DNA of 64,000 nucleotides from Streptomyces sp. BA2 (GTDB lineage Bacteria > Actinomycetota > Actinomycetes > Streptomycetales > Streptomycetaceae), in the NCBI RefSeq assembly GCF_009769735.1, contig NZ_WSRO01000002.1, positions 124,001 to 188,000 on the forward strand, in the 5' to 3' direction. Shown piece by piece: positions 15,318-43,469 of this stretch. Position numbers and translations under genes: made by a program. The notes under the pieces are model-generated. The model was not told the origin of the DNA, ran no database searches, and saw nothing but the letters and a program-made list of their open reading frames with translations. Positions within the stretch are counted from its first letter, which is position 1. Every line of letters begins with the position of its first letter.

Positions 15318-15455
15318 CGCTGGCCACCTGTTGGGCACCCGCGTGGGGCGCCACGGCTGACAGCACGTCATCGTTCTGCCCAGCGTACGACGGTGTGCCG
15401 CGGCCGCCGGTGGTCTTGCGGAGTCCGGGGCCCAGATCGCCCGCCGAAGTGGTGG

Positions 15456-15603
15456 CTGTAGAGCGCTCCTGTTCACGCCCGGCCCGACAGCTGGTGCGGT
15501 GCTGCTGCAGTCCCGGCGAGGCGACCTCATCCAGGATCGGTTCCCGGACCTGGTGCGCGCGGCCGCCGATCTGCCGCCCGGCCTGGTCCTGGACGGTGTT
15601 ATG
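15456..15603 (+). pseudogene. ATP-dependent DNA ligase fragment
   Basis: The frame reads RALLFTPGPTAGAVLLQSRR followed by GDLIQDRFPDLVRAAADLPP and GLVLDG, then a stop. This matches the segment after the adenylated lysine (WDGYRAL...VVLRSRRG...LDGELV) of actinobacterial LigD-like ligases. The lysine motif itself is deleted. A second, longer ligase fragment is at 51311-51649. Confidence 0.55.
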
Positions 15604-15700
15604 TGACCTGTAGGGGTGTCTCCGCCCCAAGGTGTCTCAGGCGGCGCAGCCCCATAGACGAGACGTGACGGGTGTCGCGGCCACGTGCCGCAGCAGCCGC

Positions 15701-16039
15701 TCAGAGGTGGCCGTCCAGGAACTCCCGTACCTCGGCGATGGTCATTGTCCCCGTGCTGTGCGCCACCGCCTCTCCCTCCTTCAGCAGGACGTAGGACGGG
15801 GCTCCGGTGATCCCGTATCGCTCGGTTGCGGCCGGACAACGCGTGATGTCGGCGCGGACGGCCGTCAGGCGGCCCGTGTAGTCGTCGGCGATGCCGCCCA
15901 CGACGAGGTCCATCATCCGGCAGGGCTCGATTGCCTTGGGCCATGTCCCGGTGAAGTAGGCGAGGACCGGAACTCCGCTCATCCCGAGGATGAAATTGAA
16001 CTCCGCGTCCTCACGGGGTCGGTGAACCCGGTTCGCCAT
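15701..16039 (-). CDS. Thioredoxin-like protein with single-cysteine active site
   Basis: A 112-residue protein, MANRVHRPREDAEF onward, with AGGAG 8 nt before the start. The thioredoxin fold is evident from VPVLAYFTGTWPKAIEPCRM, LTAVRADITRCPAATERYGI and the cis-Pro region TGAPSYVLLKEGEAV. The usual WCxxC site is replaced by TWPKAIEPC: the first (nucleophilic) Cys is missing and only the second remains. It is therefore unlikely to reduce disulfides in the normal way and may act as a chaperone or on mixed disulfides. It stands alone. Confidence 0.8.
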   Translation of the reverse strand: MANRVHRPREDAEFNFILGMSGVPVLAYFTGTWPKAIEPCRMMDLVVGGIADDYTGRLTAVRADITRCPAATERYGITGAPSYVLLKEGEAVAHSTGTMTIAEVREFLDGHL

Positions 16040-16424: not shown

Positions 16425-17597
16425 TCAGCCGGCCCGAAGACCGACCGCCAGCGTCAGTTCAAGGACCCTGTGTGGCGATGCTAGATCCGGAAACAGCTCC
16501 CGCACCTGCGACATCCGGTACCGGACTGTCTGGGGATGGACGAACAGCGCCGCCGCCACCTCGTCCCGCCTGCCCTGGTGCAGCAGCCAGGCCCGCAGCG
16601 TCTCCTCCAGGCGCCGTGCGGTCGCGGCAGGCAAGGTCCGCAATGGTGCGAGGGCTCGGGCACGCAGGTCTGCGAACGCGTCCATGTCGGCGCTCAGCAC
16701 CAGCTCGGGCAGGTGGGCCTCGGTGTCGCGAATATCAGAGGAGAGGGAGCGCGCGCGTACGGCTCGTGCGTACGAGGTGGACGCACGAGTCCATGGCCGG
16801 GCCGGGCCGACCACGGCGGTGCGGTCGGTCAGCTGCCGCAAGAGATGTGATCGGTCGGCATCGGGGACGAGCAGCACACCGGTGGCATCCGGCATGGCAT
16901 CCGGCAGATCGTCGAGGACGAGGGTGCTCGGGTCGAGCGCGCGGTAGGCGGGCCGGGCCTGGGCCGCGGGCAGCAGGACCGCGGTCAGCGAAACCGGAGG
17001 CTGCCACCCGGCCCGTTGAACAGAGGCGAGGAGCACGTCCGGGCTCGCCCCGGCGAGGAGGTCGCGGGCCAGGTGTTCCAGGTGGCGCTCCTGGTCCCTG
17101 CCCCGGGCGGCCAGTTCGTCGGCGTGGCCCGCGGCGCTCGCGGCAGAGAGCTCGTCAATGTAGGCGAACGTCAGCTCGGCGAACTTGGCGACCTCGGCGG
17201 CGGGCAGACCCGCTGGTACGGCACCCGCTGCCAGGCATCGCCAGGCCACGCGGGCGCCGACGCGGTAGGCGCTGAGCAGGGCGTCCATCGAACGGCCGTC
17301 GCGCACCTCGCCGCGGCCCAGCTCATAGGCGGCGTCACCGGCGTCGCCGCCTGTGGCTTTCCCGCTCGCGAGGTCCAGGTAGTGCCCCAGGGCGGTGCGG
17401 ACGGCTCGGCGGATGGTGGCGCCCATGCTGCCCGAAAGGGCGTTGGCGTAGGAAGGGACCTCGTCGATGATCGCCTGGACGACCTCGTCGGCGGTGCTCT
17501 TCAGCGCGGCCCGAAGTGCGGTGACCGTCGTCTCATCCAGGGCCAGTTCGCTGGCCCTCCGGATTGCATGGCTCACGTTTTTGTTCCCTGCGAACAA
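16425..17597 (-). CDS. PucR/CdaR-type transcriptional regulator
   Basis: A 390-residue protein. The C-terminal helix-turn-helix of the PucR family is clear: LEETLRAWLLHQGRRDEVAA, ALFVHPQTVRYRMSQVRELF and a final helix. The middle contains a GGDEF-like region typical of CdaR-type regulators, and the N-terminus holds the helical RsbR-like part with DGRSMDALLSAYRVGARVAW. It is divergent from the reductase/desaturase pair, with 66 nt between starts, so it probably senses membrane or acyl-lipid status and controls that pair (inference from context). Confidence 0.85.
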   Translation of the reverse strand: MFAGNKNVSHAIRRASELALDETTVTALRAALKSTADEVVQAIIDEVPSYANALSGSMGATIRRAVRTALGHYLDLASGKATGGDAGDAAYELGRGEVRDGRSMDALLSAYRVGARVAWRCLAAGAVPAGLPAAEVAKFAELTFAYIDELSAASAAGHADELAARGRDQERHLEHLARDLLAGASPDVLLASVQRAGWQPPVSLTAVLLPAAQARPAYRALDPSTLVLDDLPDAMPDATGVLLVPDADRSHLLRQLTDRTAVVGPARPWTRASTSYARAVRARSLSSDIRDTEAHLPELVLSADMDAFADLRARALAPLRTLPAATARRLEETLRAWLLHQGRRDEVAAALFVHPQTVRYRMSQVRELFPDLASPHRVLELTLAVGLRAG

Positions 17598-17663
17598 TTC
17601 AGCCGACCAGATTTACGTCTTACGGTCAGGACTTTACTCCTTGAGGCGCAGCAAGCTGAAGTC

Positions 17664-18719
17664 ATGACGAGTGCAGCGCTTCGCAGCAGGGCGTGGAAAC
17701 TGCTGGAGATGGTCACGACGCCGCTGCTGCCGTCGGACTACCTCGACCTGGTCAGCCCGCTGCGTGCGGGCGCTGACCTGCGTGGGCGCATCGAGGCCGT
17801 GCATCCCGAGACGGGTGACGCCGCGACCATCGTGATCAGGCCGGGACAGGGCTGGCGCGGCCACACAGCCGGTCAGTATGTGCGGATCGGCATCGACGTC
17901 GACGGGGTGCGCCTGTGGCGTGCCTACTCCCTCACCTCGCCGACCAGCCGCCAGGACGGCCGCGTCACGATCACCGTGAAGGCGATCCCGGACGGCAAGG
18001 TCAGCAACCACCTGGTCCGCAGGGCGAAGCCGGGCACGCTGATCCAGCTCGACCAGGCGACCGGTGACTTCGTGCTGCCGCAGGCCAAGCCCGCCAAGGT
18101 GCTCTACCTGACGGCCGGCAGCGGCATCACGCCCGTGATGGGCATGCTGCGCGACACCGAGTTCGACGACGTCGTCATGGTCCACTGCGCGCCACAGCCG
18201 CAAGACGTGATCTTCCGCAACGAACTGCATGACCTGGTCGCGGACAAGAAGCTGCGGCTCACCGAGGTGCACACCGACACAGACGGCATGCTCGACATCG
18301 CCCGTCTCGACGAACTCGTGCCCGACTGGGCCGAGCGCGAGACCTGGGCCTGCGGGCCCGCGGGCCTGCTGGATGCCGCCGAAAAGCACTGGACCGAGCA
18401 CGGCATCCAGGAGCACCTGCACACCGAACGCTTCCGCCCCAGCATCGTCGTCGCCGGCGACGGCGGCGAGGTGACGTTCAGCGCCACCGGCAGGACCGTC
18501 GACGCGGACGGTGCCACGCCGTTGCTGGACATCGGCGAGGAGGCCGGCGTGCTCATGCCCTCCGGGTGCCGCATGGGCATCTGCTTCGGCTGCGTCACGC
18601 CGCTCAAGGCGGGCGCCGTCCGCGACCTGCGCACCGGCGAGATCACCGAGGCCGAGCCGGGCGTCCTCATCCAGACCTGCGTGTCCGCCGCGGCGGGCCC
18701 TTGCGACATCGAACGGTAG
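17664..18719 (+). CDS. Ferredoxin/flavodoxin reductase with C-terminal 2Fe-2S domain (electron donor for desaturase)
   Basis: A 351-residue protein. The FAD-binding region contains RLWRAYSLTSP, the NAD(P) region LYLTAGSGITPVMGML and WACGPAGLLD. The C-terminus carries a plant-type ferredoxin cluster motif CRMGICFGC, with a fourth Cys in LIQTCVSAA. It passes electrons from NAD(P)H through FAD and 2Fe-2S to an oxygenase-type partner. The desaturase gene follows after 7 nt, matching the DesA3-Rv3230c arrangement of mycobacteria, so it most likely feeds that enzyme. The start at 17664 is preferred because upstream codons overlap the regulator. Confidence 0.9.
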   Translation: MTSAALRSRAWKLLEMVTTPLLPSDYLDLVSPLRAGADLRGRIEAVHPETGDAATIVIRPGQGWRGHTAGQYVRIGIDVDGVRLWRAYSLTSPTSRQDGRVTITVKAIPDGKVSNHLVRRAKPGTLIQLDQATGDFVLPQAKPAKVLYLTAGSGITPVMGMLRDTEFDDVVMVHCAPQPQDVIFRNELHDLVADKKLRLTEVHTDTDGMLDIARLDELVPDWAERETWACGPAGLLDAAEKHWTEHGIQEHLHTERFRPSIVVAGDGGEVTFSATGRTVDADGATPLLDIGEEAGVLMPSGCRMGICFGCVTPLKAGAVRDLRTGEITEAEPGVLIQTCVSAAAGPCDIER

Positions 18720-18726
18720 GAGCACT

Positions 18727-19845
18727 TTGACCGCCATCGACCCCACCGCCCACCTGACCGCGGAGCAGATCGAAGAGCTGGGCCGCGAGCTGGACGCGAT
18801 CCGCGACGAAGTGATCGCCGACCGCGGCGAGAAGGACGCCGCCTACATCCGTAAGGTCATCTCGGCGCAGCGCAAGCTCGAACTGGCCAGCAGGGGCGTG
18901 CTGTTGTTCTCGATCTTCCCGCCCGCGTGGCTGCTCGGCACCGCCGGGCTGTCCGTGGCGAAGATCATGGACAACATGGAGATCGGCCACAACATCCTGC
19001 ACGGCCAGTGGGACTGGATGCGGGACCCGAAGATCCACTCCACCACCTGGGAGTGGGATCACGTCTCGCCGTCCGAGCAGTGGAAGCACTCGCACAACGA
19101 GCTGCACCACACGTACACCAACGTGATCGGCAAGGACAACGACCTCGGCTACGGCATCATGCGCGTCGACGAGGACCAGAAGTGGCACCCGTTCCACCTC
19201 GGCCAGCCGCTGTGGAACTTCCTCAACGCCTGCTTCTTCGAGTACGGCATCGCCGCCTACGACCTGGAGCTCGGCAAGAACCTGAGCAAGCGCCGCCGCA
19301 AGGACCCGGAGTTCCGCGCACGGGCCAAGGCCGTGGGCCGCAAGATCCGCAAGCAGGTGCTCAAGGACTACGTGATCCACCCGCTGCTTTCGGGCCCGTC
19401 GTTCCTCCCCACGCTCGCCGCCACGTTCACCGCGAACCTGGTCCGCAACATCTGGACCCACTCGGTGATCATGTGCGGGCACTTCCCCGAGGGCGTACAG
19501 GTCTTCGAGCGCCGGTCGATCAAGGGCGAGACGCGCGGCCAGTGGTACCTGCGCCAGATGATGGGCTCGGCGAACATCAGCGGCAGCAAGGCCATGCACT
19601 TCATGACCGGCAACCTGTCGCACCAGATCGAGCACCACCTGTTCCCGGACCTGCCGAGCAACCGGTACGCCGAGGTCGCGGTGAAGGTGCGCGCGCTGTT
19701 CGAAAAGTACGAGCTGGAGTACGTCACCGGGCCTCTGCCCAAGCAGGTGTTCTCCGCGTGGCACAAGGTCTTCCGGCTCTCACTGCCGAACAAGAAGCCC
19801 ACGGTCAAGACACCGGACCGCGAGCAGGAGCTCGTTGCCGCCTAG
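18727..19845 (+). CDS. Membrane fatty acid desaturase
   Basis: A 372-residue integral membrane di-iron desaturase. The TTG start follows AGGAG at 5 nt and lies 7 nt after the reductase stop. The three His boxes are present: GHNILHGQWDW, HSHNELHHTYTN and GNLSHQIEHHLFPDLP. Hydrophobic stretches include VLLFSIFPPAWLLGTAGLSV. The family inserts a cis double bond into acyl-CoA or acyl-lipid, using O2 and electrons from a reductase, to tune membrane fluidity. Likely co-transcribed with the reductase. An IS5 element lies 15 nt after the stop but does not interrupt the gene. Confidence 0.92.
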   Translation: MTAIDPTAHLTAEQIEELGRELDAIRDEVIADRGEKDAAYIRKVISAQRKLELASRGVLLFSIFPPAWLLGTAGLSVAKIMDNMEIGHNILHGQWDWMRDPKIHSTTWEWDHVSPSEQWKHSHNELHHTYTNVIGKDNDLGYGIMRVDEDQKWHPFHLGQPLWNFLNACFFEYGIAAYDLELGKNLSKRRRKDPEFRARAKAVGRKIRKQVLKDYVIHPLLSGPSFLPTLAATFTANLVRNIWTHSVIMCGHFPEGVQVFERRSIKGETRGQWYLRQMMGSANISGSKAMHFMTGNLSHQIEHHLFPDLPSNRYAEVAVKVRALFEKYELEYVTGPLPKQVFSAWHKVFRLSLPNKKPTVKTPDREQELVAA

Positions 19846-19860
19846 GACTGGTCCGGCCGA

Positions 19861-20789
19861 TCATGTGCGGAGCCAGATGGTGAGGGCTGCGGCGGTGGCG
19901 GTGCCGAGGTAGACGTAACGGCGATTGTCATAGCGGGTGGCCACAGCCCGGTGCTGCTTGAGCCGGTTGATGGCTCGCTCAACGGTGTTGCGTTTCCTGT
20001 ACCGCTCCTCGTCGAAGCCGGGTGGCCGCCCGCCGCGTGAGCGTTTTCGCAGGCGGGCGGCCCGGCTGTCGGCTTTCTCCGGAATCGTGTGCCAGATGCC
20101 CCGGCGCCGCAGGTATTCGCGACAGGGCCCGTTGCTGTAGGCCTTGTCGGCCGCGACGCTGTCAGGCTTCTTGCGAGGCCTACCCGATCCCGACTTCGGG
20201 ACTCGGATCTTCTCCAGCACCGGCTTGAACTGGGTGCAGTCCGCTCGCTGGCCTGGTGTGACGATCAAAGACAACGGGCGACAACGGCCGTCCGCGCTCA
20301 GGTCGAGTTTGGTGGTGAACCCGCCGCGCGAGCGGCCCAGGCCCTCACCTCCCGCACCACCTCCGCCAGGCGGGCGTGCAGACTCTGCCAGGGCGTTTCG
20401 TCCTGATGTTCTGACCCTTCGGCCCCCTTTGGCTGGCGCCGACGGCGGGCCGGTACGGGCACCCGCCGCATGCTGATGCGCCCGCACGATGGTGGAGTCG
20501 ACCGAGACATCCCGGTCGATCTCACCTGCGGCGAACGCCGCAGCCTGGACTTGCTGGAGCAGACGCTCCCACGTCCCGTCGGCCGACCACAGCCGGCGCC
20601 GTTCGTAGACCGTCTTCCACGGCCCGAACCGTGCGGGCAGGTCACGCCACTGCACCCCGGTCCGCACTCGGTGCAGAATCCCGTCGATCACCTGCCGGTG
20701 ATCCCTCCACCTGCCACAACGCCTGTTGCTGACCGGCAGGAACGGCCGTAGCCGTTCCACTCGGAATCACTCAGATCTCCCCGCCCCAT
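19861..20789 (-). mobile_element. IS5-family insertion sequence, transposase nearly intact
   Basis: From a GTG at 20760 the frame encodes 299 residues with a complete DDE core: VDSTIVRAHQHAAGARTG (first Asp), SVAADKAYSNGP (second Asp) and KRNTVERAINRLKQHR (Glu), ending YVYLGTATAAALTIWL. The family's N-terminus [11 protein letters not shown] lies just upstream from an ATG at 20789 but in another frame: one G seems to be missing near 20761. The transposase may therefore start late or be inactive. Terminal inverted repeats were not resolved. The element sits between the desaturase and NUDIX genes. Confidence 0.85.
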
Positions 20790-20844
20790 GCCCACCACAA
20801 CGAAACCGGCAAGGCGCGGAAACGCCCGTCCTACGCTGTCGGTC

Positions 20845-21348
20845 ATGAGCACTCACAACCCGTCGTTCACTGTCGACGACGACGTCGAGGTGCCTGATCC
20901 CGCCTCAGGCGAGGTCTGGACCGTCGGCGCCGTCATCCTCAATCAGGACGGCCAGGCTTTCGCCCAAAAGCGGAGCCCAAGCCGTCGCCTGTTTCCTGAT
21001 ACCTGGGACATCGTGGGCGGCCACGTCGAGGCTGGGGAAACGGTTTTGGAGGCTCTCGCACGCGAGGTCCAGGAGGAGACCGGTTGGTGCCTGACCCACG
21101 TGCGGCGGTTCCTTGGCACCGCGACCTGGACCGGGGACGACGGCGGTGGACTCCGTCACGAAGCCGACTATCTCGTCGAGGTCGATGGCGACTTGGATCA
21201 CCCCACGCTGGAATGGTCCAAGCACTCTGCCTACGACTGGTTCAGCCCCGACAACCTCGCCCGCCTCAAAGAGAACCGCAGGCCCGGGGAGTTCTTGATC
21301 CACGACGTCATCGCACGGGCCATCGAAGATCGCCCGGACAAGCCCTAG
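20845..21348 (+). CDS. NUDIX hydrolase
   Basis: A 167-residue protein. The NUDIX box reads [20 protein letters not shown] followed by ETGW, matching Gx5Ex7REUxEExGU with every metal-binding residue. It would hydrolyse a nucleoside diphosphate linked to another moiety; the substrate is unknown. The start [16 protein letters not shown] is chosen because the upstream frame overlaps the IS5 end. The stop codon lies inside the terminator stem at 21342-21372. Confidence 0.88.
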
Positions 21349-21838: not shown

Positions 21839-22144
21839 ATGCCTCAGGTCGTCGCTCCATACGCCCAAGCTGCCGCCGTCGTGAAGAAGGACGGAACGAT
21901 CGAGCGGTCCAAGGGCGTGACGGATGTGAAGCGGACGGACAAGGGCCGCTACACGATCACCCTCAGCGAGGACATCGACGTCCGCATGTGTGTCCCCGTG
22001 GCCACGCTCAACCGGTCTGCGGACTGGCACGGCGAGATCTACGTCAGCGTCCCGGCCAGCGCCGATACTGACCACACCATCCAGGTCCTGACCGGCGTGA
22101 ACGGCACAGCCACCGACGAGCCCTTCCACGTCGTCGTCCCCTGA
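21839..22144 (+). CDS. Small hypothetical protein
   Basis: A 101-residue protein with AAGGAG 7 nt before its ATG. It begins MPQVVAPYAQAAAVVKKDGT and continues with a strand-rich pattern (GRYTITLSEDIDVRMCVPVA, GEIYVSVPASADTDHTIQVL), which suggests a small beta-sandwich. No signal peptide, membrane segment or known motif is visible. The family is not recognised. A strong hairpin precedes its ribosome site and IS110 remains follow. Confidence 0.65.
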   Translation: MPQVVAPYAQAAAVVKKDGTIERSKGVTDVKRTDKGRYTITLSEDIDVRMCVPVATLNRSADWHGEIYVSVPASADTDHTIQVLTGVNGTATDEPFHVVVP

Positions 22145-22184
22145 CCCGACCAGGCGGCGCTACCGCACTGCCCACCCGGTACCC

Positions 22185-23170
22185 GACGTCCACCAGGCTG
22201 CCGTCATCGACACCATCGGCCGGCACCTGGCCACCGACGCATTCCACACCACACCTGAAGGCTATCGGCGCCTACTGGCGTGGCTGCGCTCGCACGGCCA
22301 GGTGCTGATGGTGGGCATGGAGGGCACCGGATCCTTCGGTGCCGAACTGGCCCGGTACCTGCGTGCCAACGAGATGACTCTGGTCGAAGTGGATCGACCC
22401 GATCGTCGAGCTCGTCGCGCCGCAGGCAAATCCGACCCCATCGACGCCTACGCCGCCGCTACCGCAGTGCTCTCGGCCGTGCCAGCAGCACCCCGAAGGA
22501 CCGCGACGGCGCGGTCGAGGCAATCCGCACACTGCGCGTGGTACGCGCCAGCGCCATCAAGGCCCGCACCCAGACCATCAACCAGCTCAAATCACTGATC
22601 ATCACCGCGCCCGCTGCGACACGCGAAGCACTGCGCTCGCTGACCACCACCGAGCTGATACGCCGTCTGGCCGCCAGCCGACCCGGCTCCGACCTGACCA
22701 CCCCGGCCGCCGCCGTCAAACTCGCACTCAAACGCCTGGCCAAGCGATAGCACCTGAGCGAAGAGATCGCGGACGCGGACGCCGAGTTGGGCGCCCTGAT
22801 CACCCACACCGCAACCCGGCCTGCTCGCGCTACCGGGCGTCGGGACCGAAACCGCCGGGCAGTTGCTGGTCACCGCTGGGGACAACCCCGCCAGGCTCAC
22901 CTCGGAGGCGTCCTTCGCCCATCTATGTGCGGCTGCACCCGTGCCGGCATCCTCGGGCCGCACGGATCGCCATCGACTCAACCGCGGCGGCGACCGCCAG
23001 GCCAACCGCGCGCTGCATACCATCGTCCTGGTTCGCATGCGTCACGACCCACGCACCCGCGACTACGTCGCACGATGCACCCTCGAAGGGCTCAAGACGA
23101 AAGACATCTTCAGGTGCCTCAAGCGCTTCGTCGCGCGAGAGGTCTACCACCACCTCACCAGCGCACCATC
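22185..23170 (+). pseudogene. IS110-family transposase, frameshifted
   Basis: The pieces occur in several frames. First DVHQAAVIDTIGRHLATDAF and LMVGMEGTGSFGAELARYLR with AAGKSDPIDAYAAA (DEDD-type N-terminal domain). Then VRASAIKARTQTINQLKSLI in another frame. Last the C-terminal transposase_20 block ASFAHLCAAAPVPASSGRTD, HRLNRGGDRQANRALHTIVL and REVYHHL. At least three frameshifts and the loss of the first residues make it non-functional. It lies directly upstream of the polyketide synthase. Confidence 0.8.
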
Positions 23171-23376
23171 AACATCTCCAGCCACTTGACGATCCATAGG
23201 AGCTTCAGAGTCGAGGTAGCCAACTCACCGCTCCCGTAGAGGACTTCAATCCGTGACCACGCAGTACGGCAGCTCCGCTCCGTCGCGGCTCGCGTCCGGC
23301 GGCGCTCCCCCTGTTCGGCGCAGGTCGACTATCGTGATCACAGCAACTCCCGTATCCAGAGGAAGCGTTCATCCTG

Positions 23377-26300
23377 GTGACAGCGCACATGACCGCCCTC
23401 CGCCCCTTGCCTGATCTACTACGGGAGCATGCCCGGCGTTTCGGTTCCAAGACCGCCTTCCAGGACGCCCTTTCCCAGGTGACCTACGGGGAGCTGGAAC
23501 TGCGAACCGGCCGGCTGGCGGGACACCTCGTCGGCCTCGGTCTGCGGCACGGGGAACGAGCGGCGATCCTTCTGGGCAGCCGGGTGGAGGCCGTCGAGAG
23601 CGTCCTCGCCGTCACCAGGGCGGGCGCGGTCGGGGTACCGATGGACCCGCGGAGCACCACCGCCGAGTTGGCACACCTGCTGGACGACAGCGGGGCCCTG
23701 GTCCTCTTCACCGACCGCAACTCCCTGGAGCAGTTGCAGCCGCTGCTGCGCGAGCGCCCCCTGCTTGGCGTGGTGCTCGTCGAGGATGCCGGGGCACGAG
23801 ACGGATCACCGGCAGCGGAAACGGCAGCGGCAGCAGAGACGAGTGGCGGTTCGGCCCGCGTAGCGGGCATCCTCCGCTACGCCGCCCTGGCCGTCACCGA
23901 GCCGCCTGTGCCGGCTCCGGATGATCTCGGGCTCGACGAGGTGGCCTGGCTCCTCTACACCTCCGGGTCGACCGGCCTGCCCAAGGGGGTGCTGTCCACC
24001 CAGCGCCACCGGCTGTCGTCGGTGGCGTCCGGTTTCGTCGACGTCCTCGGCCTGTCGGCGGACGACCGCCTGCTCTGGCCCCTCCCCCTCCACCACGCCA
24101 TGGGGCAGCTCCTGTGCGTCCTCGGGGTGACCGCCACGGGCGCGTCCGCCAAGCTCCTTCCGCGGTTCTCCGTGACGGACGTGCTGGCTGAACTCCGCCG
24201 GACCGAGGACCCTTTCACGCTGCTGGCCGGTGTGCCGGCGGCGTACCGCAAGCTCGTTGACGCCGTAGGGGACGGAGGCCTTGGGGCGCCCGCCCTGCGT
24301 GGCTGCGTCAGCGGGGGTGCGACCGCTCCTCCCGCTTTCCAGCGGGCTTTCGAGGAAGTCTGCCGGGTTCCGTTCCTCGATCATTACGGAAGCACTGAGG
24401 CGGGGCCCGTCACCATGACGGCGCCGGGCGCCGCCAGGACGGCCGGCTCCTGCGGCCGTGTGCTGCCAGGTATGCGGGCGCGTATCGGCGACGGCTGCGA
24501 CTCCGAAGCCCCGGGAGAGGGCGGGGAAGAGGGCGAGAAAGAGGGCGAGTTGTGGGTCTCCGGGCCCGGTGTCATGGCCGGTTACCACCAGCGGCCCGAC
24601 GACACCGCCGAGGTCCTGCGCGACGGGTGGTACCGCACCGGTGACCTGGCCCGGATCGGCACCGACGGTGAAATCACCCTCACGGGCCGGGTCAGCGAGC
24701 TGATCATCAGGGCCGGGGAGAACATCCATCCCTCCGAGGTGGAGGCGGTGCTGCTGGCGCTGCCGGGAATACAGGACGCCGCCGTGGCCGGCCTCTCGGA
24801 CGACGTACACGGTGAGGTCCCGGCTGCTTACCTGGTTCCGGCGCACGCCGGTGCCCTCGACAGGAGAGAGATTCTCGCCGCCTGCCGGGAACACCTCTCA
24901 CCGTTCAAGGTGCCCGCCGCCTTCTACGAGGTGGAGGCGATCCCTCGTACCGCCTCGGGCAAGGTGAAGCGGTACACCCTCGCAGACGTGTCCGCGCGCC
25001 CTCTGCCGCCCCAAGCCCTCACGCCGCAAGAGGTGGAGACGACGGACCTGACGGCTCTGGTGCGGGCCGAGGTCGCCGCCGTGCTCGGCTGCGCCGTGGA
25101 CGAGGTGGAGCAGAGCACCGCGTTCCGTGACCTGGGCCTTGACTCATTGACGTCGACGGCGCTGCGCGACCGCTTGGCGACGGCGACCGGGCTCTCCCTG
25201 TCCGAGGCCGCGCCCTTCGACTTCCCCACCGCTGCCGAGCTCGCCGCACATCTGCGGGCGCGGCTCGCCGGTGGGACGGTGACTGCCACGCCCAGCCGTC
25301 CGGCAGAGACAGCTGGTTCGGACGAGGACCCCGTGGTCATCGTCGGCATGGCGTGCCGTTTCCCCGGCGGCGTACAGAATCCCGAGGATCTGTGGCGGCT
25401 GGTCGAGGACGGGATCGACGCCATCACCCCCTTCCCCACCGACCGGGGGTGGGACGTGGACGGGCTGTACGACCCGGATCCCGGGCAGCCAGGACGTACG
25501 TACGTACGCGAGGGAGGCTTCCTGTCCGGCGTCGACCGCTTCGACCCCGCCTTCTTCGGGATCTCGCCCCGCGAGGCCCTGGCCATGGATCCGCAGCACC
25601 GATTGCTGCTCGAAGTCGCCTGGGAAGCCTTCGAACACGCGGGGATCGATCCCGGCACGGTGCGCGCCACCCCCACTGGTGTGTACGCCGGACTCATGTA
25701 CAGCGACTACGCCAGTCGTCTCGCCCGCACGCCGGAACGGGTGGAGGGCTACCTCGGTATCGGCAACGCGGGCAGCGTCGCCTCCGGCCGTATCGCCTAC
25801 ACCCTGGGCCTGGAGGGTCCTGCGGTCACCGTGGACACGGCGTGCTCGTCGTCCCTGGTGGCCCTGCACCTGGCAGCCCAGGCCCTGCGCAGGGGCGAGT
25901 GCTCGATGGCGCTCGCCGGAGGCGCCACCGTGATGTCGGCACCCCACTCCTTCGTCGAGTTCAGCAGGCAGCGCGCACTCGCCCCCGACGGCCGCTGCAA
26001 GGCGTTCGGGGCGGCGGCGGACGGCACCGGATGGGCCGAAGGCGCAGGAATGCTGCTCATGACCCGGCTCTCGGAGGCCCGGCGCGCCGGCCATCGGGTC
26101 CTGGCCGTGGTGCGCGGTTCCGCGGTGAACCAGGACGGCGCGAGCAACGGCCTGACCGCGCCGCACGGACCGGCCCAGCAACGGGTGATCCGCCAGGCTC
26201 TGGCGGACGCCGGCCTCGCGCCCGCGGACATCGACGCGGTGGAGGCCCATGGCACAGGCACCCGGCTCGGCGACGTGATCGAGGCGAAGGCCTTCCTGGA

Positions 26301-29300
26301 GGCGTACGGACCGGAGGCGGGCGGGCAGGAGGCGGGCGGGCAGGCCGGAACACGCGAACATCCGTTGTGGCTGGGCTCGGCGAAGTCCAACATCGGGCAT
26401 ACGCAGGCGGCGGCGGGCATGGCCGCCGTGATGAAGATGGTCCAGGCGATGGAGCACGGCGTACTGCCGCGTACGCTCCACGCCGAGCAGCCCAATCCCG
26501 GCGTGGACTGGTCCTCGGGCGCGGTCTCGCTGCTCACCCGTTCGAGGCCCTGGCCCCGGACCGGGCGGCCCCGGCGGGCGGGTGTGTCGTCCTTCGGGAT
26601 CAGCGGGACCAACGCGCATGTGGTGATCGAGCAGCCGCCCGTGGAGAGGTCGGGTGCCGGTGCCCCGGGCCGGTCGGACAGCGGTACTACGGCCACTCAG
26701 GTGCCCGCTCGGTCGGTACCGGGGGCGGCCGTGTCGTTTCCGGTGTCGGCAAGGAGCGCCCCGGCGCTGCGGGCGCAGGCTCAGCGACTGCACGCCTACG
26801 TGGCCGAACGTCCCGGAACAGACCTGCTGGACCTCGGTTTCTCCCTGGCCACGACCCGCTCCCATTTCGAGCATCGCGCGGTGCCGGTCGCCCGTGACCG
26901 CGAAGAACTGCTCGCCTCGCTCGAAGCGTTGGCGGAGGGCCGCTACCGGCCGGGCCTGGCCACGAGCGGCCCCCGCCCGGCGGGCCCTGTCGTCTTCATG
27001 TTCACCGGGCAGGGCAGCCAGCGGACCGGCATGGGCCGGGAACTGTACGAGGCGCACCCCGTCTACGCCCGTTCCTTCGACGAGATATGCGCCCTGCTGG
27101 ACCCGCTTCTGCCGGAGCCGCTGCGGGACGTGGTGTTCGCCGCCGAAACCGCCGAATCCGCCGATACCGCCGAGAACATCGAAGGTGACGGCACGGGAAG
27201 TGCCGAGTGTGTCGGCGGCTCGCGAGCGGGCGTGCTCGGCGGGCTCGGCGCGCTCCTGCACACAACGCGCTTCGCGCAGCCCGCACTCTTCGCTCTGGAG
27301 GTCTCCCTGTTCCGGCTGCTGGAGTCCTGGGGCGTACGCCCCGACATGGTGGCAGGGCACTCGGTCGGCGAACTGGCGGCGGCTCATGTCGCCGGGGTGC
27401 TGTCCCTCGCGGACGCCTGCACCTTGGTCGCGGCGCGGGGTCGGCTGATGGACGCCCTGCCAACCGGTGGGGCGATGGCGTCGGTTCAGGCCAACGAAAG
27501 CGAGGTCACCTCGTACCTGGCAGGCGGAGCGGACCGCACCCGAGGCGTGGACAGTGCCCCAAGGGTGGACATCTCAGCCGTGAACGGTCGCTCCGTCGTT
27601 GTCTCCGGGGACGAATCCGCAGTGCTGGAGGCCATCGCGTACTGGCGCGAACAAGGCCGCGAGACCACCCGGCTGCGGGTGAGCCACGCCTTCCACTCGG
27701 CGCACATGGAACCCATGATCGATGCCTTCGGCCTAGTCGCGCAGGGGATCACCTACTCCCCTCCGCAACTGCCCTTCGTCACCGCGGTGGTGGACCGGCC
27801 CGCGACCACCGAGGAGATCTGCTCGCCGCGGTACTGGGTGGACCACGTACGCCGACCGGTCCGATTCGCCGACTCGGTGCGGTACCTACGGGAGCGGGGG
27901 GCCACGCACTTCGTGGAGCTCGGCCCGAACAGCGTCCTCGCGGGTCTGGCGCGCGACTGTCTCTCCGGCCGCCGCCCGACGGCCACGGCGGACGAGGCCA
28001 CGGCGAACGCGGCCACCGCCGACCCGGCGGCGGTGGCATCCGGCGACGGTACGGACGGCCCCGAACCGCTGGTCGTCCCGACGCTGCGCGGCCCGCGGCC
28101 GGAGGCAGCGGCACTGCTCGCCACCGTGGCCGCACTCCACGCCCACGGTGTGGACGTGGACTGGCGCGCGGTCTTCGCCGGACGCGGCGCACGGCACACG
28201 GCGCTGCCCACCTACGCGTTCCAGCGCGAGCGATACTGGCTCGAGGCCGACTCGGCCGGATCCGCTACGGCGGCCGACTCGTCGACATCCGCGGCTGAGC
28301 CCGGCCCCGAGCCCCACCCCTTCCTCCGGGCGGTGACGTCGACGGCGGACGACGACGGCCTGCTGCTGAGCGGCCGGCTGTCCCTGGGTGATCAGCCCTG
28401 GCTCGCCGACCACGCGGTGCTGGACACGGTGCTCCTGCCGGCGACGGCCTTCGTCGACATGGCGATCCACGCCGGGGACCGGACGGGTGCCTCCACACTG
28501 GAGGAACTGACGCTGACGGCGCCGCTCGTACTCTCCCCCGACGAGCCGGTCGAGCTCCAGGTGAAGGTGGCGCGAGCCGACGCGGAGGGGCGCCGGGCGG
28601 TGGTCTTCCACGCACGGACGCACGCTCCCGGTTACGACGACCGTCCCTGGACCCGCCACGCCTCCGGAGTCCTGACCCCTGCGGACTTCAGCCTTCCGGA
28701 ACAGCGGGCTTCCACGGACTCACCCTCTCCATGGCCTCCGGCGGGCGCCGTACCGCTGCCGCTCGGCACCGAGGCGGGTATCGGCCTCTACGAGGGACTT
28801 GCGCACGGCGGGCTCCGTTACGGGCCGGCCTTCCAGGGCCTGCGGGCCGCTTGGCGCCTGGGGGACGACCTCCTCGCCGAGGTCGAACTCCCGGAGGGTG
28901 AACACGTAAACGCCGGCCTGTTCACTCTGCATCCGGCGCTGCTGGACTCGGCACTGCACACCCTGACGCTGGATCAGTATCAGTCCGTCCCGGAGGGCGA
29001 CCGCGGCAGCGGAACCGGGGCGGGTTTGTCGCTCCCGTTCGCCTGGAGCGGTGTGCGGCTGCACGCGTCCGGCGCCCGCGCCCTGCGGGTGCGGGTGTCC
29101 CGGGCGAAGAGGGAAACGGAGGGGAAAGCGAAGGGAAAGAGTGTCCGGCTGGAACTGACCGACGAGGCCGGAGCCCCCGTGGCCACGGTGCACTCGCTCA
29201 CCCTGCGGCCGCTCGCCCCCGAGCAGTTGAGCGGCGTACGCGCGCACAGCGACAGTCTGTTCCGCCTTGAGTGGACACCTCTGCCGGATTCCGCCGCCCC

Positions 29301-31962
29301 GGTGCCGACGCGGCCGGCGGGGCCGCCTCTGTACGGACTCCTCGGCGAACCGTCCCCAGAACTGAGCGGCGCACTCGCGCAATTGGGCATCCGGCCGACG
29401 GTCTACACGGACCCTGCTTCGGCGGCACCCGACGCACCGGCCGTCGTGATCGCCTGCCCACCGCTCACGAGGGTGGACGAACCTGACCGTGCGTCGGCCG
29501 CACACCGCGCAACCGGCTGGGCGCTGCGGCTCGTACAGAACTGGCTCGCCGAAGACCGACTCGCCAACTCACGTCTCGCCGTGCTCACTTCGGGCGCCGT
29601 CACCTCCGGCCTCGTTACCTCGGGCGTCATCACCCCCGGAGCCGATCCGGACGCGAGCATCACCAACGACGATGCCGCACTAGTCCATGCACCTGTGTGG
29701 GGGCTGCTCCGCTCGGCGCAGACCGAGAACCCGGGCCGCTTCTCGCTGATCGACATCGACGACCACCCCGAGTCCGCGGGCGCCTTGGCCCGAGCCCTGA
29801 TGAGTACCGAGCCGCAGACGGCCATACGCCACGGTGTCGCGTACGTACCGAGACTGGTCCGCGCAACCCAGGCGGCAACGGCAACGCCGGTGACGGCGAC
29901 CGCTGCGGCGGCCGATGGCGCACCGCGGCGGCTGCACCCGGATGGCACCGTCCTGGTGACCGGGGGCACCGGCTCCCTGGGCATGCTGTTCGCCCGTCAC
30001 CTCGTGGTCGCACACGGCGTACGTCACCTGTTGCTCGTGGGACGGCGCGGAGCGGACGCGCCCGGTGCCGCCGAACTCGGCGCGGACCTCACCGGACTGG
30101 GCGCAGAGGTCACCTTCGCGGCCTGCGACGTCGCCGACCGCACGGCGCTCGCCGCCCTGCTCGCGAGCGTTCCGGAGGCACACCCACTGACCGGAGTGGT
30201 GCACACCGCGGGGGTCCTGGACGACGGAGTGGTGCCCGCGCTCACCCAGGAGCGGCTGGACCGCGTACTGCGGCCGAAGGTGGACGCGGGCCTGGCCCTG
30301 CACGAGTTGACCCGGAGCTGCGACCTGGCGGTGTTCGCCCTGTTCTCGTCGGTGGCCGGGGTGTTCGGCTCCGGTGGGCAGGGCAACTACGCGGCGGCGA
30401 ACTCGTTCCTGGACGCGCTGGCACAGCACCGCAGGGTGCTCGGGCTGCCCGGCACCTCTCTCGCCTGGGGGCCATGGCAGCAGAGCGGCGGGATGACGGC
30501 CGGGCTCCGGGGCGCGGACCTGCGCAGGATGGCCCGTTCCGGTTTCCTCCCGCTGCGGACCGAGGAGGGCCTTTCGCTCTTCGACGCCGCCATCGAAGGA
30601 CAGGAGGCGGCCCTGGTGGCCGCGCGTCTCGACCCGGCGGCAGCGGCGGCATCCGCGGACCCCGGGGCACCGCTCTCACGTGTACCGGGCCGAGGGCCCG
30701 TACGGAGGGCCTCCGCATCGCTGGCAGGGCCCGGCACCGGAGGTGAGGACTCCCTGCGCCGACGGCTGGCCGCCATGCCCGCGGTCGAACGCGGTGCGCT
30801 GCTCCTCTCGCAGGTCCGAGCGGAAGCCGCCCTGGCGCTCGGCCATGGCTCGGGGGATTGTGCGGTCGAGGCGGACCGCGCGCTGGCCGAGCTGGGCCTC
30901 GACTCACTGGCCGCGGTCGAGCTGCGCAACCGGCTCGCCGCGCTGACGGGCCTCGCCTTGCCTGCCACGCTCCTGTTCGACTACCCGACGCCGCGCGCCG
31001 TTGCCGCCCACTTGGATGAGCTCTGGTCCTTGAACACCCCTGAATCATCGGGCGCGTTGGCCGCACCACAGCGGCAGGAGGGTGCGTCGCTGAGTACTTC
31101 GGCTCCGAAGGCCACGAACGCCGCCGACTCCTTGTCCGCGCTCTTCCGTACGGCGTGCGCCCGTGGCAAGGCGTGGGACGGGATGGCCCTCCTGACGATA
31201 GCCGCACGTCTCCGTGAGGTGTTCGAAGACGCCGCGGTCCTTGGCTCGCCGCCCGCGGCCGTCACCCTTGCGACGGGGGGCTCCGGGACCCGCCTGATCT
31301 GTTTCCCCGCCCTCAGCGCACTGTCTGGGCCGCACGAATACACCCGATTGGGGTCGGCCCTCCAGGACCGGCGCCCGGTTTCGGTACTGCCGAACCCGGG
31401 CTTCCTGCCGGAGGAACTGTTGCCCGCCACACTCGATGCCTTCGTGGCGGCACAGGCCTCCGCCGTGCACGCGTGCGTCGGAGACGAGCCGTTCGTCCTG
31501 CTGGGGCGGTCGGCCGGCGGATGGGTGGCACACGCGGTCGCCGAGAAGCTTGAGAGCATGGGCCTGATTCCCTCCGCTGTCGTCCTGATCGACACCTATC
31601 CCGGCGCGGAAAGCAGTTCAGGAGGCCCCGGCGGCGACGGACCCGCGCTCTCGGCGATGACCGCAGGCATGCTGGAGAACGCCTCGCAGTTCGCCTCGGT
31701 CGAGACCGACCGGCTCACTGCGATGGCCGGCTACCTGGAGCTCTACGCCGGCTGGAAGCCGGCCTCCCTGTCGGCCCCCACCCTCTTCGTCCGGGCCGGA
31801 GACCGCCTGCCGGGCATCGAAGCAGCCGAACCATGGAACCTGCCGCACTTCGAGATCACCGTGCCCGGCGACCACTTCACCGTTCTTGAGGATCATTCCC
31901 GCACGACAGCGCTGGCCATCCACACCTGGCTCTCGGAGCACCTCCGAGTGGACGCCTCCTGA
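23377..31962 (+). CDS. Single-protein type I polyketide synthase with AMP-ligase loading domain
   Basis: 2861 residues from a GTG with AGAGGAAG upstream. In order: acyl/aryl adenylate ligase 10-540 ([37 protein letters not shown]); ACP1, phosphopantetheine Ser590 (LGLDSL); KS 649-1085 with Cys823, His958, His1008; AT 1209-1500 with GHSVGE Ser1329 and HAFH 1437-1440, predicting malonyl-CoA; DH 1665-1900 with His1679 and Asp1857; KR 2190-2400 with GGTGSLG, LDD 2281-2283 (B-type), Ser2325, Tyr2338; ACP2 Ser2510; TE with GRSAGG Ser2712, Asp2739, His2833. The build predicts activation of a free acid starter, one or more extensions with malonate, ketoreduction, possible dehydration, and release by the TE. 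Starter, number of cycles and product are unknown. No docking domains, transporter or regulator flank it. Confidence 0.93.
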
Positions 31963-32511
31963 GACGCGGGCCTCAGGGCCACGACGGGGAAGCCGGACGG
32001 CAGCCGATTGGCCAGCGCGCCGCACGGCATCCGCGTGCCCTCCGCCTGGACGGTGGCTTCACTTCGAAGGCCTCGCCCCCCTCCGACCGCCCCAATGGTC
32101 GCGGCGTCAGCGCCGCCCCGAAAGCGGGCCGCCCGGGAGGGGCGCCGCAGCCTGGAGTCCGTACCGCGCGGCCGCGTTGCCCTCGGCCGGACGCAATGAA
32201 CTCCTCAGCGAGGTCACGCACTTGGTGCGGTCCCTGGGACGCCCGGCGAGGGTCGACGAGCAGCATCGCGGTGGCGGCACCCGTTGCCGGGGACGGCTGA
32301 GGAACTCATGCCGCGTGCTCCTTCGGCTGCGGGGCGGCGCTTGACAGCAGGAGATAACGCGGAGCCTCCTTGAGAAGTAGGGAGATGCGCTACATCTGGC
32401 CGTGCCGATTAGGGGCCTGACAGGCGCCTTTGGTCGTGCCGCAGCTGTGGCGGCCCTGACCCTGGCTGTCGTCGTTGCTGATCAGACCAGTCACGTCAGC
32501 GGCACCCTCAG
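31963..32511. other. Region without a recognisable gene downstream of the PKS
   Basis: About 550 nt between the PKS stop and the IS30 remnant. No frame on either strand shows a family motif together with a ribosome site, and no clear terminator hairpin was found. Confidence 0.3.
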
Positions 32512-33190
32512 GTGATCAACGCACCACCCACGGATGATCATGTGATCGTGGAGGCACAGGTGCGTGACTACGGGTTTTCGCCGGCTCAGCAGGATGAGAT
32601 CTGGAGACGCTGGCGCGAGGGGCAATCGTTCAGCTTGATCGGGCGGGCGCTTGGGGCACCGATGCAGAACGCCCGTCGGTTCCTGCACCAGAGCGGCGGC
32701 GACGCCTCACCCCGCAGCAGCGATCAGAGCGGCATTTGAACGGCAGCGAGCGCGAAGAGATATCCCGCGGCATCGCCGCCAGGGAATCTGGCCGGCAGTT
32801 GGCCAGGCGGCTGGGCCGATCGCCCTCGACCGTCCCCCGCGAGATCACCCGAAACGGAGGCCGGGACCGCTACGGTGCCGCATCCGCCGATGAGGCCGCC
32901 TACGCGCGCGGGCGCCGGCCCAAGCAGCGTCCAAGCTCGCCCAACGACCGGCTCTGCGTGCCCTGGTGGAGGCGAAGCTGGCTCTCGCACGAAGCGATCT
33001 ACCTCTCGCTCCACGACCCTCGTCGCCGCCACGCAATCGACCGCAGCCTCACTCAGCGCCTGCGGTCAGCCCGGCCATGCGCCGCCCGAAGATGGCCCAT
33101 CGACCTACCGGGCGGCGCATCATCCGCGGCCTGGTGTCCATCACCGCCCGCCCTGTCGAGGTCGAGGTCGAGGACCGGGGAGCAGGCGGT
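32512..33190 (+). pseudogene. IS30-family transposase remnant
   Basis: N-terminal pieces are clear: VRDYGFSPAQQDEIWRRWRE with GQSFSLIGRALGAP in one frame, then GSEREEISRGIAARESGRQL and ARRLGRSPSTVPREITRNGG in another, the IS30 helix-turn-helix region. Later scraps (SHEAIYLSLHDPRRRHAIDR) follow after deletions. The DDE catalytic part is missing. The dioxygenase gene begins about 60 nt after the last recognisable piece. Confidence 0.8.
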
Positions 33191-33248
33191 ATGCCCGGTA
33201 GCCAACCAGCGTACGAGCGGATGCGAACAGTCAGTCCCTGGGCCAAGC

Positions 33249-33998
33249 ATGGAGGGAATGGAAGAGGAAGCCTGCGGTACGACGGCGCGCGACGCGATGA
33301 CGCAGCTCGCGTACCGTTCTCTGTCCTCGACGGGTGTGTACCTGGTGGCGGCGGACGACCTGCTGGGATGTCTGGAGGTGGATACCGGGGCCTGGAAGCG
33401 CTTCGCCAGCCACTGGGAGGACCTTGGACCTGACGCCTATGCGGCTCGCGAAGGTACCCTTCGCCTGCGCCGCTACGGCCGCTTCTCCCTCACACGGGAC
33501 GGCCACGTCACACCAATGCCCCACGTCCCCTTCCGCCAGGGCGAACAGTCCAACCCCCTCTACATTGACAAGGACCGTCACCTCGCCCCCCTCACCGAGG
33601 CATTCTGCGCGGAGCCCGTCCTGACCGCACTGCTGTCCATGCTGGGCCGAGTGGCTGCCGGGATCGTACACGCGGCCGAGTGGAGCGTGAACGTCCACCT
33701 CTTCCGCGTGACGGCCCTACCGGGTAATACCGGAGAGCCGACGCCGGAGGGCAGGCACCGGGACGGGGTGACTCTTGTGTCCTCGCTGCTGGTAGCACGA
33801 ACCAACGCGGCCGGTGGACAAAGCTCCGTCTTCACGCCGCGCGGCAGACACCTCCTGACCACCACACTCAGGGATCCAGGGGCCTTGCTCCTGGGAGACG
33901 ACCGCAGCACTTTCCACGAAGTGACCCCGATCCACCCGCTGGACGCCGCCTCCCCAGCCCAGCGTGACGTACTGGTCACCACACTGACGGCCCGATGA
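33249..33998 (+). CDS. 2-oxoglutarate/Fe(II) dioxygenase (2OG-Fe_Oxy_2, amino-acid hydroxylase-like)
   Basis: A 249-residue protein from MEGMEEEACG; ATGs at 33258 and 33297 are also possible. The iron triad is visible: His170 and Asp172 in EGRHRDGVTLVSSLLV, and His223 in FHEVTPIHPLD, with Arg in AQRDVLVTTL as the likely 2-oxoglutarate ligand. This matches the family of bacterial L-isoleucine and related free amino-acid hydroxylases. It couples substrate hydroxylation to decarboxylation of 2-oxoglutarate; the substrate is not predictable. It lies 1.3 kb from the PKS in the same orientation, separated by IS30 scraps, so a joint pathway is possible but unproven. Confidence 0.8.
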   Translation: MEGMEEEACGTTARDAMTQLAYRSLSSTGVYLVAADDLLGCLEVDTGAWKRFASHWEDLGPDAYAAREGTLRLRRYGRFSLTRDGHVTPMPHVPFRQGEQSNPLYIDKDRHLAPLTEAFCAEPVLTALLSMLGRVAAGIVHAAEWSVNVHLFRVTALPGNTGEPTPEGRHRDGVTLVSSLLVARTNAAGGQSSVFTPRGRHLLTTTLRDPGALLLGDDRSTFHEVTPIHPLDAASPAQRDVLVTTLTAR

Positions 33999-34288
33999 CC
34001 CGTAGGGCTGTGGAATCGGGGCGCCCGGTTGTCCAAGACCGCCCCGATACGCCAGCACCCGCATCATGTGCGGAAGCGGGAGAGCCAGGTGCCGTCGGCC
34101 TTCTGCCCGGGCACGGCCTGGTCGTGCTCCTGATGATCAGGCTGAGTGTGCTCGGTTTGGCGTTCGGCGGCGGGTCTCCCGTGGGGCGCCCCACCGGGCG
34201 GGCTCGAGCGCCTACCACCGTTCGTCGGTGAACTTCGTGCCGCAGCTGGCGCGCCGCGTCGGCTGCGTGAGCGGTACAACCTTCGAGC

Positions 34289-37355: not shown

Positions 37356-37534
37356 CGCCCCTCCCCCGCTTTCCGCCACAGCAGTGTGCGTGCGGTGAAG
37401 ATCATCGTGAGTCTGGTCGGGCTGGGGGCAATCCTTGACGGCGTGGCCGCGATCCCCCGGCGGCTCGGCACGTCCGTCCCGGACGCGGGAGCGACGCGAG
37501 GCCGCGTACGTCCGCATCGTGGTTGCCGTGGGTC

Positions 37535-37545
37535 AGCGCTTCGAC
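37535..37545. promoter_or_regulatory. Possible regulator site upstream of the ROK gene
   Basis: AGCGCTTCGAC here is identical to 11 nt of the palindrome upstream of xylA (44782-44793 and flank). It is 78 nt before the ROK start, a plausible place for autoregulation. The left half of the palindrome is degenerate. Confidence 0.35.
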
Positions 37546-37612
37546 CCGAGGCACCAGGCTCAGCCACGGCAGTGCAGGTCGTCACGGCCCTTCGCATAGG
37601 GTCGGACCCACG

Positions 37613-38857
37613 ATGAACAGCAACGATCCGTCCGCCGCGCCGTCCAAGGCCGACAAGGCGACCGTACGGCGGCACAACCTGAGCCTGGTGCTGCGCACGG
37701 TCCATGACGCCGGTGAGACGACGCGCGCCGGGGTGGCCGCGCGGGTGGGGCTGACCCGGGCCGCGGTGTCCTCGCTCGTGGATCAGCTCCTCACCGAGGG
37801 GTTCCTCACCGAGTGGGGCAAGACGTTCAGCGGGCAGGCGGGGCGGCCGGGCACGGCGTTGCAGGTGGCGCGGACCGGGCCCGCCGGACTCGGGGTCGAG
37901 ATCAACATCGACTACGTGACGGTGTGCGTCATCGACCTCGCAGGCACCGACCGCGTACGCCTGGTGGAGCGCACCGACAACCGGGGCGCCCCGCCCGCCA
38001 CGGTCCTGGCCCGGGCGGCGCGGCTCGCGTCACGGGCCATCGAGTCCGCCACGGAGCAGAAGCTTCGCCCCGTCGGTGCCGAACTGGCCCTGCCCGCCCT
38101 GGTCTCCGGTGGTTCGGTGCGGCAGGCGCCGAACCTGGGCTGGAACCGGGTGGCCGTGGAGGGACTGTTCGCACAGGCGTTGACGGCGCTGCATCCCACC
38201 CACCGCGCACTGCCGGTCAGCGCCGACAACGAGGCGAACCTGGCGGCCATGGCCGAGCTGTGGTTCGGCGACAGCGACGACCGCGTGACCAGCTTCATCT
38301 ACCTGACCGGCGAGATCGGTATCGGCGGCGCCCTGGTGCTGAACGGTCAACTCCTGCGCGGTGCCCACGGGTTCGCCGGTGAGATCGGGCATGTTGTGGT
38401 GGAGCCGGACGGTCCCGAGTGCCGCTGCGGTGCGCGGGGCTGTCTGGAGCAGTACGCGGGACAGGCGGCGCTGTTGAGGGCGGCGGGTCTCGACGAGAGC
38501 GCGGGCCTGACCGGGCTCGCGGAGCTGGAGCGCCTGGCGCGCGAGGGCGAGCCGCAAGCCCGGAACGCGATCGAGGAGGCCGGGCGCAGGCTTGGCCGGG
38601 TGCTCTCGGGGGCGGTGAATCTCATCGACCCGGACGCGGTGATTCTGGGCGGTGTCTTCCGCGACCTCATGCCGTGGCTCGCCCCCGCCGCCGATGGGGA
38701 GTTGACCGCCCGTGTGGTGTCGGGTCTGTGGACGCCGGGTGGCAAGCGGCTGCGGGCCTCGTCCTCGTCCGGTGACGCGGCGCGGGGCGCGGCAGCGCGC
38801 GTGGTGCGCGAGGTCCTGGCGGACCCGGCTGCGTACGTGGAGCGCGTGGCGGACTGA
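37613..38857 (+). CDS. ROK family transcriptional regulator (XylR/NagC type)
   Basis: A 414-residue protein. The N-terminal winged helix (RAGVAARVGLTRAAVSSLVD, then QLLTEGFLTEWG) is followed by a sugar-kinase-like ROK domain with YLTGEIGIGGALVLNG and the zinc motif CRCGARGCLEQYAG. The ATP-site DxGxT motif of true kinases is not evident (VEINIDYVTVCVIDL), so it is a regulator rather than a glucokinase. The context of xylose isomerase, alpha-xylosidase and a sugar ABC importer suggests xylose or an oligosaccharide as effector. Confidence 0.88.
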   Translation: MNSNDPSAAPSKADKATVRRHNLSLVLRTVHDAGETTRAGVAARVGLTRAAVSSLVDQLLTEGFLTEWGKTFSGQAGRPGTALQVARTGPAGLGVEINIDYVTVCVIDLAGTDRVRLVERTDNRGAPPATVLARAARLASRAIESATEQKLRPVGAELALPALVSGGSVRQAPNLGWNRVAVEGLFAQALTALHPTHRALPVSADNEANLAAMAELWFGDSDDRVTSFIYLTGEIGIGGALVLNGQLLRGAHGFAGEIGHVVVEPDGPECRCGARGCLEQYAGQAALLRAAGLDESAGLTGLAELERLAREGEPQARNAIEEAGRRLGRVLSGAVNLIDPDAVILGGVFRDLMPWLAPAADGELTARVVSGLWTPGGKRLRASSSSGDAARGAAARVVREVLADPAAYVERVAD

Positions 38858-38888
38858 CACCTCGGCCCGGGGAGGGCCTGGCGGTGTC
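38856..38888. terminator. Hairpin between convergent genes
   Basis: GACACC (38856-38861) pairs with GGTGTC (38883-38888), and an inner stem GGCCC/GGGCC adds stability. It lies between the convergent ROK and beta-glucosidase genes and may end both transcripts. Confidence 0.45.
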
Positions 38889-38914
38889 GGTGCGCCGCGC
38901 GCTCCGGGACGATG

Positions 38915-40294: not shown

Positions 40295-40300
40295 GGATGG

Positions 40301-41196: not shown

Positions 41197-41201
41197 GCCG
41201 G

Positions 41202-42161: not shown

Positions 42162-42171
42162 GTTCGTCACG

Positions 42172-43437: not shown

Positions 43438-43469
43438 GGTGGTTGCCCTTGCCTGGGAGGGGTGGCCGG

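Follow-up and report, generated by a model that had tools for sequence, protein, structure and literature searches.

The DNA considered here is a stretch of 64,000 nucleotides from Streptomyces sp. BA2 (contig NZ_WSRO01000002.1, positions 124,001 to 188,000; C2:124001-188000 in a host genome of 10.04 Mb on two contigs), referred to below as the window. Its subject is a type I polyketide synthase (PKS) gene, which occupies positions 23377-31962 of the forward strand as a single unbroken open reading frame (ORF) with a GTG start and encodes a protein of 2861 amino acids. An original prediction, made from the letters alone, had proposed that this one polypeptide covers the whole path from a free acid to a released product, and the ORF, the Pfam domains and the catalytic motifs bear this out; the domain search which that prediction called for was run, and Pfam returns every domain it had named. 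The protein comprises an acid-activating adenylation domain (AL, the loader), two acyl carrier proteins (ACP1 and ACP2), a ketosynthase (KS), an acyltransferase (AT), a dehydratase (DH), a ketoreductase (KR) and a thioesterase (TE), arranged as follows.

23377..31962, + strand: single-protein type I PKS, AL-ACP-KS-AT(malonyl)-DH-KR-ACP-TE (ORF, Pfam, motifs; GTG aligned in the 8 nearest loci)
23419..24963, + strand: AL, acid-activating adenylation (ANL) domain (Pfam AMP-binding at residues 15-404 and its C-terminal domain at 454-529)
25057..25254, + strand: ACP1, loading carrier (PF00550, residues 561-626; LGLDS at residue 586)
25327..26484, + strand: KS (PF00109 2.3e-97, residues 651-901; PF02801, 909-1036)
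26992..27969, + strand: AT, malonyl type, with GHSVG and HAFH (PF00698, Acyl_transf_1, residues 1206-1531)
28315..29229, + strand: DH, His1679 and Asp1857 (PF21089 and PF14765, PKS_DH, residues 1647-1951)
29359..29853, + strand: KR structural subdomain, SpnB-type Rossmann (PF22953 1.5e-14, SpnB_Rossmann, residues 1995-2159)
29944..30480, + strand: KR, B type by LDD, with YAAAN (PF08659 4.2e-59, residues 2190-2368)
30892..30915, + strand: ACP2 attachment motif LGLDSLAA (motif scan)
31291..31929, + strand: TE, with GRSAGG, LIDTYP and GDHFT (PF00975 6.2e-20, residues 2639-2851)

The PP-binding Pfam family matches two stretches of the protein, the better of which is 561-626, and the KS carries the motifs DTACSSS, HGTGT and NIGH. 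GHSVG together with HAFH marks an AT of malonyl type, and LDD marks a KR of B type. The protein scores 1809.6 bits against the NCBIfam model NF045894 (cut-off 1740), which places it among the cis-AT type I PKSs, while the model for the mycobacterial Pks13 gives 697.2 bits, below its cut-off of 2100. Olefin synthases (OLS) are marked by a sulfotransferase domain preceding the TE, and this domain is absent among the 17 Pfam families of the protein. The gene contains no TTA codons, and its carrier proteins could be armed by the products of the six genomic matches to PF01648, the phosphopantetheinyl-transferase family.

The conservation of these domains was evaluated on an alignment of 115 rows. 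A search with the first 640 residues as query scored 3140 candidates and gave 933 proteins at E <= 1e-100; among the best 120 of these 933, 115 exceed 2550 amino acids, one of them being the window's own copy, and the other five are shorter or partial, so that after removal of these five and of the own copy the rows are the window and 114 of the 120 proteins. When 22 positions in catalytic sites or motifs were compared, 20 proved to be kept in 114 or more of the 115 rows, and the loader lysines, both ACP serines, the KS Cys/His/His, the AT serine, the DH His and Asp, the KR Lys/Ser/Tyr/Asn and LDD motif, and the TE Ser/Asp/His are each present in all 115. The AT specificity motif HAFH is kept in 113, and the DH motif, which in the window reads HxxxDxxxxP in place of the usual HxxxGxxxxP, has D in 25 rows and G in 88. 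The ratio of nonsynonymous to synonymous substitution (dN/dS) between the window PKS and four relatives is 0.25-0.31, with only 338 codons available for one of them (L076), and the PKS is thus under purifying selection.

The genomic samples delimit a family of such genes, its close clade being defined by a loader identity of at least 61%. Loader matches at E <= 1e-60 occur in 98 of 295 genomes sampled from the genus, and 11 of the 295, the own genome included, belong to the close clade; nine of these 11 carry open frames of 2765-3116 amino acids, and in the other two (G119, G130) the frame is broken in draft contigs. A sample of the order yields eight close-clade genomes among 293, again including the own genome (matches at E <= 1e-150), and all matches are confined to one of nine genera. 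Some of the contigs that carry the relatives are of chromosome size, and others are linear plasmids. The original prediction had missed that the window PKS belongs to such a family of solitary genes within the genus.

In order to determine whether anything accompanies these genes, 384 neighbouring ORFs from 38 loci (37 relatives and the window) were clustered, leaving out L051, L058, L061, L067, L069 and L072 as copies or as too short; most of the loci from named genomes extend only about 3 kb downstream, and two of the loci, L029 and L071 from S. atratus, are almost copies. The widest neighbour family occurs in 4 loci, 7 families occur in at least 3 and 34 in at least 2. Because no neighbour family is found in more than 4 of the 38 loci, the PKS gene appears to be solitary by nature and not the remnant of a cluster: as far as compared, it is solitary by rule, and no tailoring gene, transporter or dedicated regulator travelling with it was found in the loci compared. 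The prediction that the window PKS is an orphan with no other PKS nearby holds as well, since of the 44 KS matches in the genome only one lies in the window and the next are at C2:88039 (a 538-aa frame) and C2:834088. A decayed remnant or a piece of a split cluster was considered and rejected on the dN/dS values, the solitary relatives and the lack of nearby KS matches.

The phylogenetic analysis of the KS, another check that had been proposed, gave no sign of a split assembly line. The KS domains of 33 clade members form one side of a branch with an SH-aLRT support of 100, separate both from PKSs whose layout differs and from seven KSs belonging to the large PKS locus of the strain, and the AL domains (34 rows) likewise form one clade with a support of 100. 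These trees are quick ones without bootstrap; KS rows under about 380 residues and AL rows under about 480 were not used, and 17 loci were removed from the KS set and 22 from the AL set as copies, although L028 is not a copy and L071 is a near copy. The window KS shares 64-71% identity with KSs encoded in the large PKS locus of the strain and in an ansamycin-type PKS, a type which we take to consist of large PKSs near a synthase for 3-amino-5-hydroxybenzoate (AHBA) and to include such names as rifamycin and geldanamycin.

The nearest kin of the AL clade are the loaders found in large PKSs and in other single-protein PKSs, and where a large PKS has an AHBA-synthase gene in its vicinity the identity to its loader is 50-56%. 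PF01041 genes were sought in 15 genomes of these loader kin, and ten were tested, each on the loader's contig and 2-60 kb away from it; a further PF01041 gene in each of G055 and G096, about 63 kb from a loader, is outside the ten. One of the ten scores 633 bits against 1b9h, the structure of an AHBA synthase, eight others are 72-93% identical to that gene, and the remaining one is only 41% identical; NCBIfam, at 1e-60, names none of the ten as AHBA synthase. Because nine of these genes match AHBA synthase by way of 1b9h and BLAST, at least nine of the loader kin look like AHBA loaders. These nine reside in open frames of about 4.6-6.0 thousand amino acids, 2-60 kb from the AHBA synthase, whereas the window loader is part of a protein of 2861. 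For one locus (L104 / L018, contig 652 of G114), with an AL-PKS frame of 2872 aa, the AL tree groups the loader with the AHBA loaders; possibly the single-protein form arose here separately, or else the short contig holds just a fragment of an ansamycin PKS.

The adenylation specificity comparison that had been suggested was carried out by setting the loader pocket against those of the AHBA-near loaders, and the residues differ: the pocket is fixed within the window clade as HHAM[SG]Q / S312 / H336, while the nine AHBA-near loaders have FHSL[SA]H / V / A. AHBA itself is therefore an unlikely starter. Among the 13 PF01041 matches in the own genome, which are assignments at the family level, there is none in the window, and the nearest on its contig is at C2:1352210. 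By our own mapping, Ala241 of AL sits at the position of Asp235 in nonribosomal peptide synthetases, which speaks against an amino acid substrate. The nearest folds to AL are those of benzoate-, feruloyl- and anthranilate-CoA ligase, with MatB also close, so that the fold search fails to separate aryl from malonyl ligases. The substrate predicted for adenylation by AL is a carboxylic acid that lacks an alpha-amino group, an aromatic acid being the likeliest. That the synthase iterates on an aliphatic, heteroaromatic or dicarboxylic starter, the kinship with AHBA loaders reflecting only ancestry, is consistent with the distinct pocket and with the proximity of MatB in fold, but the sisters of the clade in the AL tree include AHBA-near loaders, and we regard such a starter as rather unlikely.

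The interpretation we favour, with moderate confidence, is that the gene encodes a self-contained iterative type I PKS which makes a short polyenoic acid, probably aryl-primed. AL would adenylate its (aromatic) acid and load it onto ACP1, from which the KS would take the acyl group; the AT would supply malonyl units to ACP2, and after each condensation the B-type KR and the DH would produce an E-enoyl thioester. The chain would then go back to the sole KS for a few rounds, the number of which is not readable from the sequence, until the TE releases it as a conjugated (aryl-)polyenoic acid of short length; the scheme as a whole follows established PKS chemistry.

The case for iteration on an aryl starter draws on the equal layout of FnsA, a fungal enzyme (P. 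fici PFICI_04360) described as A-T-KS-AT-DH-KR-ACP-TE in one protein, an independently functional gene that alone makes naringenin from aryl acids, using p-coumarate with three malonyl units or p-hydroxybenzoate with four (PMC9606254). The two proteins share this layout, and the loading of a free acid, which FnsA performs, is predicted for the window PKS; the likeness is one of layout, and FnsA differs in being fungal and in having a known product (PMC9606254). The suggestion in the original prediction that no characterised pathway with exactly this layout is recognised is not supported by this comparison.

A single cycle, in which one malonyl unit is added and an enoic acid released (benzoate to cinnamate, for example), would fit a protein whose chain has a TE but only a single KS and a single extending ACP, a KS of cis-AT assembly-line ancestry at the identities given above, and a TE that resembles those of modular PKSs, its nearest solved structures being 9cel (type I PKS module 7) and DEBS. 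Lone modules of Streptomyces reportedly often iterate, however, and the monomodular type I PKSs of the genus, single-module proteins, are said to do so in the work of Wang et al. (PNAS 2020). FnsA, with its three to four units at equal layout, argues in the same direction (PMC9606254), and we consider a single cycle unlikely. Allenomycins and citreodiols are named in connection with such monomodular iterative PKSs of Streptomyces (PMC7896053), which resemble the window PKS in being described as single-module proteins.

FnsA also provides the argument for a third alternative, that some or all of the cycles bypass KR and DH and that the product is a pyrone or a ring-closed phenol, since it carries both domains yet forms naringenin chalcone from p-coumarate (PMC9606254). 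The catalytic residues of KR and DH in all 115 rows suggest that both domains are used, and skipping is improbable.

The layout is already known from FnsA. A search of the open-access literature returned, among the matches listed, no paper on this clade, most subscription journals being outside its coverage. Only tentatively, the clade may be an undescribed Streptomyces family in which one gene, with one fixed starter and no cluster, converts a free aromatic acid and malonyl-CoA into an aryl-polyenoic acid, as a bacterial reducing counterpart of FnsA with a loader of ansamycin-type ancestry; the product might perhaps be a small pigment or a signal. With the whole predicted pathway in one 8.6-kb gene, close homologues numbering over a hundred and no partner that recurs, the system is unusually easy to test, and its product would show whether this lone bacterial module iterates and what the HHAM/H336 pocket accepts. 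The metabolite could be made by a few per cent of the sampled Streptomyces.

Further single-protein AL-PKSs make up a second clade (L031, L032, L046, L048 and others), which is about 46% identical to the window PKS over the whole length, with the same size and, by tblastn coverage, the same layout, but belongs to other KS and AL clades. Unlike the window clade it shares neighbours: each of the four loci named has an ACP S-malonyltransferase together with two FAD monooxygenases, and three of the four have an alpha/beta hydrolase. A further gene, annotated as 'arylcarboxylate reductase', is present in L031 and L032. From this gene content the second-clade loci look like a small aryl-polyketide cluster.

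The other features around the PKS gene in the window are these.

15006-15944, - strand: Trypco2-domain protein (PF19631 3.4e-22)
17016-19845, + strand, upstream of the PKS: FAD/2Fe-2S reductase, then fatty acid desaturase (PF00487 4.1e-23)
19861-20760, - strand, upstream: IS4/5-type transposase
20788-21348, upstream: NUDIX gene
22101-23189, upstream: IS110 remnant in two broken frames (PF01548 5.8e-13, PF02371 5.3e-18)
Downstream of the PKS: IS30-type HTH_38 remnant (2.4e-12)
33231-33998, + strand: intact-looking 2OG-Fe dioxygenase (PF10014 8.1e-54), in one frame with the IS30-type remnant upstream of it
37523-47316, downstream: sugar utilisation locus with ROK regulator, GH1, transport permease, solute-binding protein, TIM-barrel isomerase-like protein and GH31

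The Pfam matches confirm the insertion sequence (IS) remains of IS110 and IS30 type that were said to flank the PKS, and because the relatives are equally solitary we infer that these are local accidents. The further claim that no transporter or regulator is nearby applies to the first few kb only, as the ROK regulator and the sugar transport genes lie at 37523-43830. The dioxygenase, which had gone unmentioned, belongs to a family of amino-acid hydroxylases.

Three families of window neighbours recur in the 38 loci: one, of the size of an ABC permease, is present in 3 of them, and the other two are those of the reductase and the desaturase. One locus weighs against the absence of partners, since in L078 the reductase and the desaturase (91% and 97% identical) lie beside the PKS, downstream of it. 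At 95% identity or more, however, the desaturase is present in 5 of the 18 genomes of the clade, counting the own one, as against 6 of 18 that lack the PKS. In the other four of these five it either occupies a different contig from the PKS or is separated from it by 4.5 Mb. Since it is as common without the PKS as with it, and elsewhere far from it, a partnership in L078 is unlikely, and we take the adjacency to be a coincidence. No relative of the dioxygenase was found in 118 related loci, and tblastn of 22 loci (13 of the window clade and 9 of the second clade) found none of the dioxygenase or the desaturase, with a 30% match to the reductase in one of them (L039). A partnership of the PKS with its window neighbours was accordingly rejected, the dioxygenase being without relatives and the distribution of the desaturase independent of the PKS. 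The desaturase is itself highly conserved yet patchy, at 95-98% identity in 10 other genomes of the 36 and absent at that level elsewhere.

A scan for sigma-70 promoters and terminators, confined to 31900-34100, found nothing. At the start of the gene, the GTG of the window PKS is aligned with a GTG in the 8 nearest loci, and the alignment of these nine sequences reveals a conserved leader.

23330..23365, + strand: TATCGT (-10-like by eye), CAACTCCC and AGAGGAAG (ribosome-binding-site-like)

The TATCGT-, CAACTCC- and AGAGGA-like boxes are common to the window and the 8 nearest loci, and exact in most. Because the GTG start and the boxes, read by eye, are held in common, the leader suggests that the PKS gene has its own promoter. 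The conservation is modest, with a pairwise identity of 0.76 in the last 35 bases and 0.63-0.65 past 70 bases when the start is located via GGTGA. Two subclades have two distinct conserved leaders, one of the CAACTCCCG type and the other of the GGCAACC...TCCTCAACGACGGGT type, the farther loci thus differing in their leader from the nearest ones; the two types are possible operator sites for some regulator.

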